A stretch of DNA of 56,233 nucleotides from Dehalococcoidia bacterium (GCA_035310145.1 DATGEL010000007.1:1-56233); one strand, 5' to 3'. Positions 49,872 to 55,799 are shown, counted from the stretch's first letter. A program made the numbers and translations. The notes: generated by a model not told the origin, from the letters alone.

Positions 49872-51494
49872 TCAGCGCACGCGCACGCTCCAGGCGCCCT
49901 CGGCTTCAACGATGAGGATGTAGACGCCGCTGATGCGGAGGCGGCGTACGGCGCTGCCCGTGAAGGTCCCGGCCGCTGTTGCCAGCACTTCGGCGAAGGA
50001 ACAGTTCTGGTCGACCAGCGTCACGCGGAACGGGCTGCTGCTCCATGCGCGGTGGTCGATGCTGAAATGCACCTCGCCTGCGGGCAGACGGATGCAGGCC
50101 ACACTGTCGCCGCTGCCCTCGGCTGCGCCGCGCGCCGCCTCCTCAAGCTCCGCGACGGGAGGCTGCGACAGCTCCACCGACCAAACGCCTGTCGTGCGTG
50201 CCCCGACCAAAAAGCGGCCGCCGCGCGACGGGGCGCAGGCGCGCAGGCCGTCGTAGGCGGTATTGCGCGGCAGATCGACGAGCGTGGCCGTCGGATCGAG
50301 CCGGTTGTCGAACAACCGCAGCGCAAAGCGCGAGGGCGGCTCGGCGCGGTGAATGATGCGCGCGACCGTGAGCCCGGCTTGCAGCGGGAACAGATCGGAG
50401 TGGCCGTCGCCGTTGCCCGTAATCCGCCAGACGATCGGCCACAGGTACGCGGGCGAGGGCATGCTGTGCCCGCGTCGCTGCCGCCGCTCGCGCGGCTCCT
50501 CAAGGGTCAGGCGCTGTGTTTGCACCGTCCCCTGCGGGGGAGTCTCCGTCCGCTGGAGACGGTTGAAGCCCAGTGCGTCCACGGCGCGCATCGGAGACGC
50601 CGGACCACCCCCGCCCGGCCCTGCCCCGCCCTCCAGCATTCGCAGCAGCTCAGCCCCGCTCGCCGGGCGCAGCGCCGGGTCTTTGTCCAGTGCGGCCTCG
50701 ACGGCGGCGCACACGCGCGGCGGCAATGCGGGGTTGATTTCGCAAAGCGGCGGCGGCGGCAGATGCGCCTGGGCGTAGAGCACATGCGCCACGTCGCCGG
50801 TGAAGGGCAGCCGACTGCTCAGCAGTTGATACGCCAGCACCCCGAGCGCGTAGATGTCCGCGGCCGGGCCGACCGCCTCGCCGCGGATCTGCTCCGGCGC
50901 GGCGGTCTCCGGCGTACCCATGCCGTAGCCGAGCTGCGTGAGGCGGGCGCGGTTCGTCGCCAGCGCGATGCCGAAGTCCATCAGCACCAGGCGGCCGCCC
51001 GGCTCCAGCATCACGTTGCTGTCTTTCACATCGCGGTGCACCAGCCCGGCGGCGTGCACCGCATCCAGCGCCGAGCCGAGATCGCGCAGCAGCGGCAGGG
51101 CGCGATCGATCGGCAGAGCGCCTTGCTCCGCGATCAGGTTCGCCAGCGTGCGCCCTTCGACCAGCTCCATGGCGAAGTACGGAGAGCCGTCCGCCTCGCC
51201 CGCTTCGAAGACGGTGACGATGTGGGGATGGCGCAGCGCGGCGAGCGCCCGCGCCTCCGCGAGAAAGCGTTTGCGGTCCTCGGCATCCGCGCAAAGCTGC
51301 GGCAGCAGCACCTTGAGCGCTACTTGCCGGTCGAGCAGCGGGTCGTGGGCGCGGTAGACCGCGGCAAAGCTGCCGAAGCCAAGCGTGCCGATGATCGCGT
51401 AGCGGCCGAGCCCATTGGGCAGCACTGGAGCGCCTCGTACGCTGTCAGTATCGCGCACGACGGCCGTTCGGCCCTCACCCCCGGTCAATCTCAT
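49872..51494 (-). CDS. Serine/threonine protein kinase with duplicated C-terminal domain
   Basis: A 540-residue protein from ATG 51494; GTG 51425 (GAGG eight bases upstream) is an equally plausible start outside the repeat. The kinase domain spans residues 31-288: Gly loop GTLGFGSFAAVY, Lys61 in VALKVL, HRDVKDSN (Asp155), DFG (Asp173) and TAAPE. No transmembrane segment follows. After a Pro/Arg linker, residues 361-442 and 460-540 are two similar beta-rich copies, each ending in a GVWSVEL/GAWSVRV segment. The C-terminal copies may bind a ligand or partner. The gene follows the SPFH gene on the same strand. Confidence 0.93.
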   Translation of the reverse strand: MRLTGGEGRTAVVRDTDSVRGAPVLPNGLGRYAIIGTLGFGSFAAVYRAHDPLLDRQVALKVLLPQLCADAEDRKRFLAEARALAALRHPHIVTVFEAGEADGSPYFAMELVEGRTLANLIAEQGALPIDRALPLLRDLGSALDAVHAAGLVHRDVKDSNVMLEPGGRLVLMDFGIALATNRARLTQLGYGMGTPETAAPEQIRGEAVGPAADIYALGVLAYQLLSSRLPFTGDVAHVLYAQAHLPPPPLCEINPALPPRVCAAVEAALDKDPALRPASGAELLRMLEGGAGPGGGGPASPMRAVDALGFNRLQRTETPPQGTVQTQRLTLEEPRERRQRRGHSMPSPAYLWPIVWRITGNGDGHSDLFPLQAGLTVARIIHRAEPPSRFALRLFDNRLDPTATLVDLPRNTAYDGLRACAPSRGGRFLVGARTTGVWSVELSQPPVAELEEAARGAAEGSGDSVACIRLPAGEVHFSIDHRAWSSSPFRVTLVDQNCSFAEVLATAAGTFTGSAVRRLRISGVYILIVEAEGAWSVRVR

Positions 51495-51527
51495 GGTCCC
51501 AATCCTGGGCGAGGGGCGATCGAGCGG
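51471..51527. repeat. Diverged inverted copy of an intergenic repeat
   Basis: This plus-strand segment, from GCCCTCACCCCCGGTC to GCGAGGGGCGATCGAGCGG, matches the reverse complement of 51621-51686: both share the CCTCACCCCC, CCCAATCCTGGG and GAGGGGCGATC blocks. The copy lies over the proposed ATG 51494 of the kinase gene. Confidence 0.65.
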
Positions 51528-51620
51528 AGCACGGCTCGCATGGCGTCGGGCTACCCGACTGACGGCGGGTTGCGCCCCCACAGGAGATTGCTTACCCGGC
51601 GCCCTTCGGAACTTCCTCCG

Positions 51621-51686
51621 CCGGATCGCCCCTCTCCCTCTCCCAGGATTGGGAGAGGGAGAGGGGACGGGGGTGAGGGCGAGGGC
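51621..51686. repeat. Intergenic repeat with a 17-bp perfect hairpin
   Basis: The arms 51629-51645 and 51650-51666 are exact reverse complements with loop GGAT. A G-rich tail (GGGGGTGAGGGCGAGGG) follows. The hairpin lies 9 bases beyond the end of the SPFH gene on the minus strand and can act as its terminator. The tail resembles dispersed intergenic repeats known from other GC-rich bacteria. Confidence 0.75.
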
Positions 51687-51695
51687 CACACGCCG

Positions 51696-53720
51696 CTACG
51701 TCCCCGGCGTCCCGCCGGCGCCGTTCTGCGCGGGCGGCGCGATTGCGACGCGATTGCCGGCGAGGATCTGGGCGAGGAAGGCCGAGAACATGGCGTTGCC
51801 CCCGTCGCCGCCAGTGCCGCCGACCACAATGTCCGGCGTAATCTTCAGGCCCGCGCCCGCAATCGCCTTCATCAGCTCGATCGCCGAAAGATTCGCCTGG
51901 CCGACCGCTTCCACCTGCTTGTCGTAGGCTTCCGCGGTTGCCGTGCCCACGGCCAGGATCTTTGAGCCCTCGGCCTCGCCTTCGACGGCCACGGCGCGGG
52001 CGCGGCCCTCCGCCTCGATGATCGTCTTCTGCTTGGTCTGCTCGGCCACCTGCACGCCGATCTGCGCGGAGACGAGGTCTTTCTGCCGGTCGGCCGTGGC
52101 GCGCGTGTTCTCCGTGGCGATGCGCTGCTGCTCCGAGCGCTGCTGCTCGATGAACATCGCCTGCTGCTGCGCCGCGATCACGCGCTTAACCTGGATCTCC
52201 ATCAACTCCTCAGGCAGGATGATGCGTGAGATCAAGACAGAGACGCACTCGACGTGATACTTGAGCAGCTCCTCGCGCGTGCGCTGCTCCGCTTTCGATT
52301 GCTCGACCGCGCGGTCCTGCATAAAGTTCATCGCCTCGGTGGAGGACGCCTGGTTGCGGAAGGAGGAGTCGATCATCGGGTGGATCACGTGCGCGATCAG
52401 GTTGTCGATCGAGCCGATCTTCGCCACCATGTACGGCGCCTGCTCCGGCCGGATGCGGATCACGACCTTGACCGAGACCTTCATCACGAAGCCGTCGTGG
52501 CTGATCACCTCCAGCGGGTCGAAGAGTTGCGCCCGCTTCACCCCCTGCTGCTCGGTGCCCGTGTCTTCGTCCGCCCAGTCGATCGTCATGTTGGTCGTCG
52601 GGATGATGTAGGCGATGTGCGCCCAGCGGTTCAGGTAGTAGACGCCGGGACCGAGCACTTCGGACTGAATCCCGCGGTAGCCCACGGGCACGACGTACCG
52701 TTCCTGCCCCACCGACTCGCGATCCGCCTCCGACATCGTCTCCGAGGGCTTGCCGACGTTGGAGACGAGCACGGCCACCTCGCCGCGCTCGACCGCGGCC
52801 ACGAGGTCGAGCTTCACGTCGAACATCATCGGGTTGATGTAGTAGGTGCCCGGTTTAAGCAGGTCGTACTGGGGGCCGCGCTGGCCGCCGCTGGCGAGAA
52901 AGGCTGAGGCGTTCTGGAAGTCGTCGTGCCCTTCGACCGAGGCGGCGACGACTTCGCCGGGCGGCAGCGGCGCGCCGTCCTTGGCCGTCACCATGCCAAC
53001 CTGTCCGGCGCCTACGATCGTCGCCGGCTGCACCTCGACGGTGAACAGGTCGGTGTTGAGCCGGTAGCGGCCGGGCAGCAGCAGCTCGATCTGCGGTCCG
53101 CGCTGGCCGCCGCTGTCGAGAAAGGTCTGGCCGTGCTGGAAGCCCATATGTCCGGGCACGGCCTGCGCCAGCAGCCGCCCCGCGGCGATCGGCGCGCCGT
53201 CGCGGGCGCTGACCAGGCCGACCTGGCCCTGCGGCACCAGCACGGCCGGCTCATTGCGCACGTGGAAGAGATAGGTGTTGATGCGGTACTTGCCGGGCGG
53301 CAAGAGGTCGACTTGCGGCCCCTTCTGGCCGCCGTTGCGCAGGAACGCCTCGCCGTCCTGGAAGGAGTCGTGGCCGTCAACGTGGCGGGCGAAGATGCGG
53401 CCAGGGTCGAGCGGCAGGCCGTCGATCGCCTCGATCAGGCCGACCTCGTCCTCGCCGATCACGATCATCTCGCCCTTGGCGACGCGGTAGCGGAAGGGCG
53501 GCAGCAGCTTCAAACCGGGCTGCAGCGCCCGCGCCTGGATCCCAACTTCGCCCGGCAAGGCCACGACGCGCCCCGGCGGCAGTGGCTTGCCGACGTACTT
53601 GCGCTCGACCAGGCCGACCTGCTGGCCGCCGACGTTGACCAACATGTGCCCCGCGGCGGCGAGGACCAGACCGGCAACCACGACGACACCGAGCACGATC
53701 AGGATTGCAACCAGCACCAT
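51696..53720 (-). CDS. SPFH/flotillin-like membrane protein with tandem N-terminal repeats
   Basis: A 674-residue protein from ATG 53720 with GGAGGTG upstream. Residues 1-24 form a membrane anchor. About residues 90-311 hold three repeats of roughly 74 residues, each starting GQVGLVSARDGAP-like and containing GGQRGPQ and LLPGRYRLN-like segments; divergent copies flank them at about 34-88 and 313-380. The SPFH core follows at about 395-560 (SVKVVIRIRPEQAPYMVAKIG, SSFRNQASSTEAMNFMQDR), then a flotillin-type coiled coil (EQQRSEQQRIATENTRATAD, IIEAEGRARAVAVEGEAEG). Flotillins scaffold membrane domains. It is transcribed ahead of the kinase gene. Confidence 0.92.
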   Translation of the reverse strand: MVLVAILIVLGVVVVAGLVLAAAGHMLVNVGGQQVGLVERKYVGKPLPPGRVVALPGEVGIQARALQPGLKLLPPFRYRVAKGEMIVIGEDEVGLIEAIDGLPLDPGRIFARHVDGHDSFQDGEAFLRNGGQKGPQVDLLPPGKYRINTYLFHVRNEPAVLVPQGQVGLVSARDGAPIAAGRLLAQAVPGHMGFQHGQTFLDSGGQRGPQIELLLPGRYRLNTDLFTVEVQPATIVGAGQVGMVTAKDGAPLPPGEVVAASVEGHDDFQNASAFLASGGQRGPQYDLLKPGTYYINPMMFDVKLDLVAAVERGEVAVLVSNVGKPSETMSEADRESVGQERYVVPVGYRGIQSEVLGPGVYYLNRWAHIAYIIPTTNMTIDWADEDTGTEQQGVKRAQLFDPLEVISHDGFVMKVSVKVVIRIRPEQAPYMVAKIGSIDNLIAHVIHPMIDSSFRNQASSTEAMNFMQDRAVEQSKAEQRTREELLKYHVECVSVLISRIILPEELMEIQVKRVIAAQQQAMFIEQQRSEQQRIATENTRATADRQKDLVSAQIGVQVAEQTKQKTIIEAEGRARAVAVEGEAEGSKILAVGTATAEAYDKQVEAVGQANLSAIELMKAIAGAGLKITPDIVVGGTGGDGGNAMFSAFLAQILAGNRVAIAPPAQNGAGGTPGT

Positions 53721-54026
53721 CAGGGCACCTCCGCCGGCAGGCACCCGATCTGGTAAGGCACGAGCGCGACAACGGTCTCCACGCTCTGCCCGGCTCTGCA
53801 TCGAACCAGACTCGGAGTTGCCGCCATGCCGGCGATTTCATCCTACTCCCGCGCCCTGGCTTCCGATCCGGGACGTTCGGGTCGCAGGGCGACGGCCGGT
53901 AGTGCCGTGTTGGCGCGGCCAGTCGATACGGTCGCGCGGCAGACGCGGATATTGAACGATCAAGCGGCGCGATACCATGGGACGGCCGGCCCGCCGAGCG
54001 CGCGCCGCCGACGAGGAGCTTCCGCC

Positions 54027-55079: not shown

Positions 55080-55799
55080 TCAGCGCAGACACGCCGTGCC
55101 GGGCTGCTCGTCGGCTGCTTCCTGCCAGCGGCGCAGCGCCGGCGAGCGGCGCAGGCGATTGAGCACGCAGTGTCGCACGCGATAGACCTCTTGCACGGTG
55201 GCGAACAGGTCCGGCCGCAGCTCCTGCACCTCCGCCGGCTTCATGCCCTGGTGGAAGGTGAGTTGCATGAACGCCCGCTCGCCGACCGTGTGCAAATGGT
55301 CTTCGATCACGCGCCAGAGGAACTGATGGCCGATCTGGTCGAGCAGGCCATCGATCGGTGAAGCCGCTTCTTGGAGCAAGGAGTCCTCGCCGAGGACAAG
55401 GGCGGCGGTACGGCGACGGCCGGCATCGATGGCGACACTGCTGGCGCAGAGCTTCAGATAGCGCAGCACCGCACTGGTCTGGGGCGCCTCGTCGAGCTTC
55501 TCCGCCGAGAAGCTGCGCCAGAACTTCGCCCAGGTCGCGGACACCAGCTCCTCGACCTCTTCGCGGCTGACGCGGGCGCGAGCGCACCAATAGACAACCT
55601 GAGGGTTGTACAACGACAGCAGCGCGGCCCAGGCTTTGTCGCAGCGCTCACGGAAGGCACGCCGAAACAGCTCGAAGGCGAAGCGATCGTCGTGCTCGTC
55701 GCCGCGGCGGTAGCGGAGGGTCTCCTCGGCGGCGCGACGCCGCAGGGTCTCGACCGGAAGGTCGCAGAGTGCCTCAGGAAGTGTCGGGCTGGCGGTCAT
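55080..55799 (-). CDS. ECF-like RNA polymerase sigma factor
   Basis: A 239-residue protein from ATG 55799. Region 2 is visible at about residues 45-120: FRRAFRERCDKAWAALLSLY, the helix VVYWCARARVSREEVEELVS, the TWAKFWRSF core and LRYLKLCASSVAIDAGRRR. The C-terminal half (EDHLHTVGERAFMQLTFHQG, KPAEVQEL) corresponds to region 4 with a degenerate helix-turn-helix. It would direct RNA polymerase to a small regulon. No anti-sigma gene is adjacent. Direct repeats in the leader (55880-55902) may be its own promoter or operator. Confidence 0.75.
   Translation of the reverse strand: MTASPTLPEALCDLPVETLRRRAAEETLRYRRGDEHDDRFAFELFRRAFRERCDKAWAALLSLYNPQVVYWCARARVSREEVEELVSATWAKFWRSFSAEKLDEAPQTSAVLRYLKLCASSVAIDAGRRRTAALVLGEDSLLQEAASPIDGLLDQIGHQFLWRVIEDHLHTVGERAFMQLTFHQGMKPAEVQELRPDLFATVQEVYRVRHCVLNRLRRSPALRRWQEAADEQPGTACLR

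Follow-up and report, generated by a model that had tools for sequence, protein, structure and literature searches.

Within a 56,233-nt stretch of DNA from a Dehalococcoidia bacterium (GCA_035310145.1, DATGEL010000007.1:1-56233; hereafter, the window), a minus-strand gene encodes an SPFH (Band_7) protein with tandem beta-repeats, which is a member of a large, widespread and unnamed family of bacterial membrane proteins. We consider it probable that this protein forms a membrane-anchored, half-vault-like dome facing the cytosol and that the Ser/Thr kinase encoded next to it is a local neighbour. The vault-like scaffold itself is a more interesting object than the pairing with the kinase, which an earlier note on this DNA had put forward as a new signalling arrangement.

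The SPFH gene and its repeat family

The SPFH open reading frame spans positions 51696–53801 on the minus strand, and translation almost certainly starts at Met28, at position 53720, directly before the transmembrane (TM) helix. The features of the gene are as follows.

51696–53720, minus strand: SPFH (Band_7) protein with tandem beta-repeats, 674 amino acids (open reading frame and translation; Band_7, E = 2.3e-20; homologues 26–69% identical over the full length)
53643–53717, minus strand: N-terminal TM helix, residues 2–26, predicted N-out, C-in (hydropathy 3.39; helix in the model; charge bias)
53421–53642, minus strand: repeat unit 1, diverged (hhalign against the clear units, E = 5.6e-15)
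53199–53420, minus strand: repeat unit 2, clear (profile, residues 101–174, 8.2e-44)
52977–53198, minus strand: repeat unit 3, clear, the extra unit of the five-unit clade (profile, residues 175–248, 5.7e-42; gap in four-unit homologues)
52755–52976, minus strand: repeat unit 4, clear (profile, residues 249–322, 1e-41)
52572–52754, minus strand: repeat unit 5, diverged, merging into the start of the SPFH domain (hhalign against the clear units, 3.3e-10)
52128–52697, minus strand: SPFH/Band_7 domain, residues 342–531 (PF01145)
52005–52211, minus strand: long C-terminal helix, residues 504–572, cap-helix/CC1-like (secondary structure of the model)

The Band_7 score of the protein is 73.8 bits (curated cut-off, 23.6), and its N-terminal membrane anchor and long C-terminal helix are those expected for the SPFH/Band_7 superfamily. 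The repeats have a period of 74 residues, with a best ungapped 30-residue self-match of 114 versus a maximum of 41 in 50 shuffles. The earlier note had counted about five copies, three of them clear, and the count is correct because a profile built from the three clear units finds units 2–4 (E values from 8e-44 to 1e-41) and profile-profile comparison (hhalign) finds the flanking units 1 and 5 at the values given above.

The repeat region is kept in all 53 homologues that were aligned. Most of them carry four units, two clear and two diverged, and about fifteen carry five; the latter belong to the window's Chloroflexota clade, to the beta- and gammaproteobacteria and, in one case, to the acidobacteria. 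At least 510 confirmed relatives from about nine phyla emerged when 84,980 species genomes were scanned, the relatives listed being from Acidobacteria, Proteobacteria, Verrucomicrobia, Bacteroidetes, Ignavibacteriae, Fibrobacteres, Patescibacteria, Cyanobacteria and Chloroflexi. Since the repeats are constant across the family, they are no device special to the window kinase, and the suggestion that they serve to recruit it was not borne out: they are found family-wide, including at the large majority of loci, which have no kinase nearby.

Clustering of the genes around the SPFH loci revealed no recurrent partner, and no conserved partner was found downstream of the SPFH gene outside cyanobacteria; NfeD-type partner genes have been described for several SPFH subfamilies (PMC2636767). 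An apparently conserved DEAD-box helicase neighbour at 17 loci was an artefact, most of its members being antisense open reading frames of the SPFH gene in GC-rich DNA. Such repeats go unmentioned in the main text of a 2009 survey of twelve prokaryotic SPFH subfamilies, and in the mostly open-access literature that was searched we found no description of membrane-anchored SPFH proteins with vault-like repeats.

Predicted fold and likeness to the Major Vault Protein

The AlphaFold2 model of the SPFH protein, a monomer built from 53 sequences, has a mean pLDDT of 83 (more than 90 in the repeats) and a whole-model pTM of 0.64. The repeat unit in this model consists of three strands, each seven residues long and linked to the next by a short bridge (7-3-7-3-7), which fits the three-stranded repeat of the Major Vault Protein, MVP (PMC13347060). 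In a Foldseek search of the PDB, the top eight matches of the model were all full-length MVP (E of 1.1e-13 and up, 740–819 columns), with prohibitin, erlin, HflK/C, stomatin and flotillin ranked behind. VIA-align, the second aligner used, matched the model to MVP (4v60) with a Z-score of 10.7 over 412 residues (model 25–576 to MVP 216–720); its MVP alignments extend over about 310–410 residues, placing repeats on repeats and the SPFH domain on the shoulder. The MVP R1–R7 fragment, which is devoid of the shoulder, still matched with a Z-score of 11.1 over 263 residues (VIA-align); the MVP likeness of the repeats is therefore independent of the shared SPFH part. Since the domains are spread out along the chain in a different way, whole-chain TM-scores are low (0.14–0.28); the long MVP alignments have rmsd values of 8–14 Å or more.

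Thus, in the predicted structure the protein has the fold and the order of parts of MVP: tandem three-stranded beta repeats, an SPFH-like shoulder and a long cap helix. The two differ in that MVP, whose domains have been called 'unique to the vault' (PMC13100048, 2026), has nine repeats and no membrane anchor, whereas the SPFH family has four or five units and a TM anchor, located at the end that in MVP forms the junction between the half vaults. Sequence similarity between them is undetectable. The MVP repeat (PF01505) and shoulder (PF11978) gave no Pfam match in the SPFH protein at E values up to 1; the family could not be linked to MVP by Pfam, by hmmsearch of the PDB or by hhalign against a genuine MVP from a cyanobacterium, although the last test is weak because its template was a single sequence; and phmmer with the single sequence found nothing useful in the PDB. 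As MVP is invisible to all sequence methods, our claim is that the SPFH protein works like MVP, not that it is MVP.

The SPFH part of the model is nearest to prohibitin (Z-score of 15.8, VIA-align), closer than to MVP, and stomatin SPFH domains match it with Z-scores of 13–14; the helix region is weakly similar in sequence to flotillin-2 (5e-5). The cages of HflK/C, QmcA, prohibitin, erlin and stomatin share with the family an N-terminal membrane helix, the SPFH domain (Z-scores of 12–16) and a long coiled-coil helix, but have a single SPFH1 unit in place of the four or five wall units. Bacterial flotillins (FloA/FloT, YqiK) are likewise membrane-bound SPFH scaffolds, but without such repeats.

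These comparisons bear on the origin of the repeats. One possibility is that each is a copy of SPFH1, the N-terminal subdomain of SPFH proteins. Unit 5 runs into the Band_7 region at the point where canonical SPFH proteins begin, and the alignments with prohibitin and QmcA start at residues 302–307, inside unit 5 or just before it. Unit 1 also has an 'L-PGl-P' motif in common with canonical SPFH proteins (hhalign probability of 56%), a weak profile signal. If the repeats arose by tandem duplication in this way, the likeness to MVP would reflect convergence and not common descent, in line with the missing sequence link between the two. However, neither the clear units nor unit 5 gave a profile match to canonical SPFH1, and the shoulder of MVP is itself SPFH-like, so that one ancestry could explain both. 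We regard duplication with convergence as quite possible, if somewhat less probable than its contrary.

Membrane topology and the proposed dome

Positively charged residues (K/R) are more numerous after the TM helix than before it in 45 of the 53 homologues, with the reverse in three (45:3); the respective values are 2.17 and 0.36. In some cyanobacterial members, a segment that reads like a signal peptide precedes the helix. Both observations point to a cytosolic body that a soluble kinase could reach, and we infer from the sequences that the SPFH body is cytosolic and held N-out/C-in by a single N-terminal membrane helix.

HflK/C cages are extracytoplasmic. Their close structural match to the SPFH model would favour a similar periplasmic or extracytoplasmic cage, with the body outside the cytosol. 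Such an orientation appears improbable, given that the 45:3 positive-inside bias favours C-in and that the signal-peptide-like segment precedes the TM helix in some cyanobacterial members. HflK/C faces away from the cytosol, whereas the body of the present family is predicted to be cytosolic.

Each chain is built of one N-terminal TM helix, four or five three-stranded beta units of the type found in the wall of the eukaryotic vault, the SPFH domain and the cap helix. Some two dozen chains or more most likely stand side by side and form a closed dome on the cytosolic membrane face; a published relation between CC1 length and copy number (y = 0.1782x + 10.22, PMC12624060) would give about 22 subunits for a helix of 69 residues. 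In this dome the TM helices would anchor the rim, the repeats would make up a tall wall, the SPFH domains the shoulder and the long helices the cap. Such a dome would fence off a patch of membrane together with a volume of cytosol. It could act like half a vault tethered to the membrane, or like a taller-walled counterpart of the cages of HflK/C, QmcA or flotillins, and would keep membrane proteins or cargo sequestered or protected. As structural units of a vault-like wall, the repeats are better explained than as a means of kinase recruitment.

A broader proposal, which we offer tentatively and hold to be possible rather than probable, is that walls of the vault type did not originate with eukaryotes. 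Half vaults tethered to the membrane, with differing numbers of wall units, would be made by hundreds of bacterial species across many phyla and could represent an intermediate between the one-unit SPFH cage and the nine-repeat vault, and the cyanobacterial ones would be served by a soluble WD40 kinase. If this is true, the family bridges the two by combining a membrane anchor with four to five vault-like wall units, bacterial models of vault assembly become tractable and the origin of the vault becomes testable.

The kinase gene and its pairing with SPFH genes

The kinase gene and the gap between the two genes contain the following features.

49872–51494, minus strand: Ser/Thr kinase gene from its likely start, ATG at 51494 (start inferred; open reading frame open to 51689)
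50787–51401, minus strand: protein kinase domain, PknB-like, motifs intact (Pkinase, 1.2e-39; NF033483, 1.3e-79, below its 450-bit cut-off)
50148–50417, minus strand: C-terminal beta-sandwich copy 1, residues 425–514 (L158/L159 profile, 1.6e-8; model)
49878–50108, minus strand: C-terminal beta-sandwich copy 2, residues 528–604 (L158/L159 profile, 1.6e-13; model)
51637–51658, no strand assigned: dispersed palindromic repeat copy between the SPFH and kinase genes (94 genome copies at up to one mismatch, none for the control pattern; stem-loop)

As listed, the kinase open reading frame (49872–51689) begins with ~65 codons that cross the dispersed repeat, and translation probably starts at ATG 51494. 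With this start, a gap of 201 bp follows the SPFH stop codon and the genes do not abut; neither a promoter match nor an intrinsic terminator was found in it. The motifs GxGxxxxV, VALK, HRDxKxxN, DFG and APE are all present, so that the kinase looks active, and it appears to be soluble: no hydrophobic segment exceeds 1.32, in keeping with the earlier note, which saw no membrane anchor. The duplication of its C-terminal domain (~85 residues per copy) likewise holds. Self-comparison of the C-terminus was not significant (32 versus a shuffle maximum of 37), and the duplication is seen with a profile from two other Chloroflexota proteins (L158/L159), of which one has a lipobox and the other a TM segment; this profile matches both copies. 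PASTA kinases (PknB/Stk1) have a similar kinase domain but also a TM helix and extracellular PASTA repeats; the window kinase has no TM helix and no PASTA match, and its tandem jelly-roll domain is otherwise found in the lipobox- or TM-bearing Chloroflexota proteins. The C-terminal model resembles many jelly rolls with Z-scores below 9, among them tandem collagen-binding domains, SIDT1/2 and GOLD domains; this may be merely a common arrangement and we therefore claim no ligand. The kinase is of the common PknB-like cytosolic type, and its C-terminus is a tandem jelly roll.

An adjacent kinase is absent from about 24 other Chloroflexota SPFH loci examined, among them those of three relatives at 68–78% identity (L010, L123 and L124). 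Among 80 named loci, four cyanobacteria were the only ones with a kinase directly downstream. The SPFH protein was detected in 28 of 292 cyanobacterial genomes, which had been sampled evenly across the phylum; seven of the loci read from this and the preceding search have a same-strand downstream kinase, and two further named loci bring the number to nine. Thus, the gene pair, for which the earlier note had proposed a search, does occur in other genomes, in nine cyanobacterial loci and, in those examined in full, with a WD40 kinase, but not in the window's own Chloroflexota relatives that were examined. The four cyanobacterial kinases examined in full consist of a zinc-ribbon-like motif, the kinase domain and WD40-type repeats (one was scanned against Pfam). 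They carry WD40 propellers and not the C-terminal domains of the window kinase, so that no common docking device is visible.

The proposal of a signalling unit in this bacterium, in which the C-terminal domains of the kinase and the repeats would bring the kinase to the SPFH cage, draws on several points. The window genes are on the same strand, 201 bp apart, with no intrinsic terminator found between them; the SPFH body and the kinase are both predicted to be cytosolic; the pairing recurs in the nine cyanobacterial loci; and there are precedents. HflKC binds and recruits the sensor kinase BarA (PMC13086221), and the title of a reference cited there has flotillin scaffolding KinC. SPFH scaffolds that act on kinases thus have precedent, and the concept is therefore not new in kind. 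Against it stand the absence of the pair in the three nearest relatives and other Chloroflexota, the family-wide repeats without kinases, the unlike C-termini of the cyanobacterial partners and the dispersed repeat that occupies the gap. With 13 kinases in the window genome, chance adjacency to a kinase is estimated at about 0.5% for a given gene, and one chance kinase neighbour is unremarkable. Recruitment in the window is quite unlikely, in our judgement: the pair has no support beyond adjacency, and local rearrangement most likely placed the kinase next to the SPFH gene.

A functional link between cage and kinase is better supported in cyanobacteria, where it may be real. The paired state is scattered over several branches of a quick SPFH tree, with six changes, at least four of them forced by well-supported branches (24 of 500 shuffles of the pairing labels reached as few changes), and one unpaired locus retains a 65-residue stump of the same kinase. 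This scatter and the stump suggest that the cyanobacterial pairing is old and was lost repeatedly. Pure chance, with the cyanobacterial pairing a product of the high kinase load of those genomes, would be consistent with the kinase-rich genomes, with pairing that differs between close relatives and with two unlike kinase types. Yet we consider it rather doubtful, as every cyanobacterial kinase of a pair lies immediately after the SPFH gene on its strand (24–664 bp) and the pairing spans several deep branches, with a remnant persisting in an unpaired locus. The cyanobacterial SPFH–kinase pair thus adds a specific regulatory hypothesis to that of the vault-like scaffold.

The C-terminal domain of the kinase in other proteins

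The window kinase shares a beta-sandwich domain of about 85 residues, present in duplicate, with Chloroflexota proteins that bear a lipobox or a transmembrane segment. Pfam holds no family for this duplicated domain of the window kinase and of the proteins at the following loci:

L158 1489-2535 (-), duplicated domain
L159 1492-2205 (-), duplicated domain
L229 1171-2037 (+), duplicated domain

A vault protein, a possible vault-like protein and two irregular loci

A genuine Major Vault Protein gene, with PF01505 repeats, was found in one of the 292 cyanobacterial genomes. The whole SPFH model matched BFVD A0A3G5A4K1, an 802-residue prohibitin-domain protein of the giant virus Harvfovirus (747 columns, E 3.5e-15), which is possibly a vault-like protein.

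L194 1-2016 (G698:C156) (-), Major Vault Protein gene
L163 1167-1364 (-), 65-residue N-terminal stump of a zinc-ribbon kinase
L124 7899-9920 (-), SPFH relative split across three overlapping frames

The L163 stump, just downstream of an SPFH gene, is apparently its decayed partner gene. L124 encodes the nearest relative by identity (68-78%), and its split reflects either gene decay or assembly frameshifts.

Other elements of the window

51637-51658, palindrome CCTCTCCCAATCCTGGGAGAGG, between the SPFH and kinase genes
55080-55799 (-), diverged ECF-like sigma factor gene (TIGR02937, 1.5e-7, below cut-off)

The palindrome is REP-like and dispersed: the genome holds 94 copies of it at ≤1 mismatch (control, 0). 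The sigma factor gene sits further upstream.
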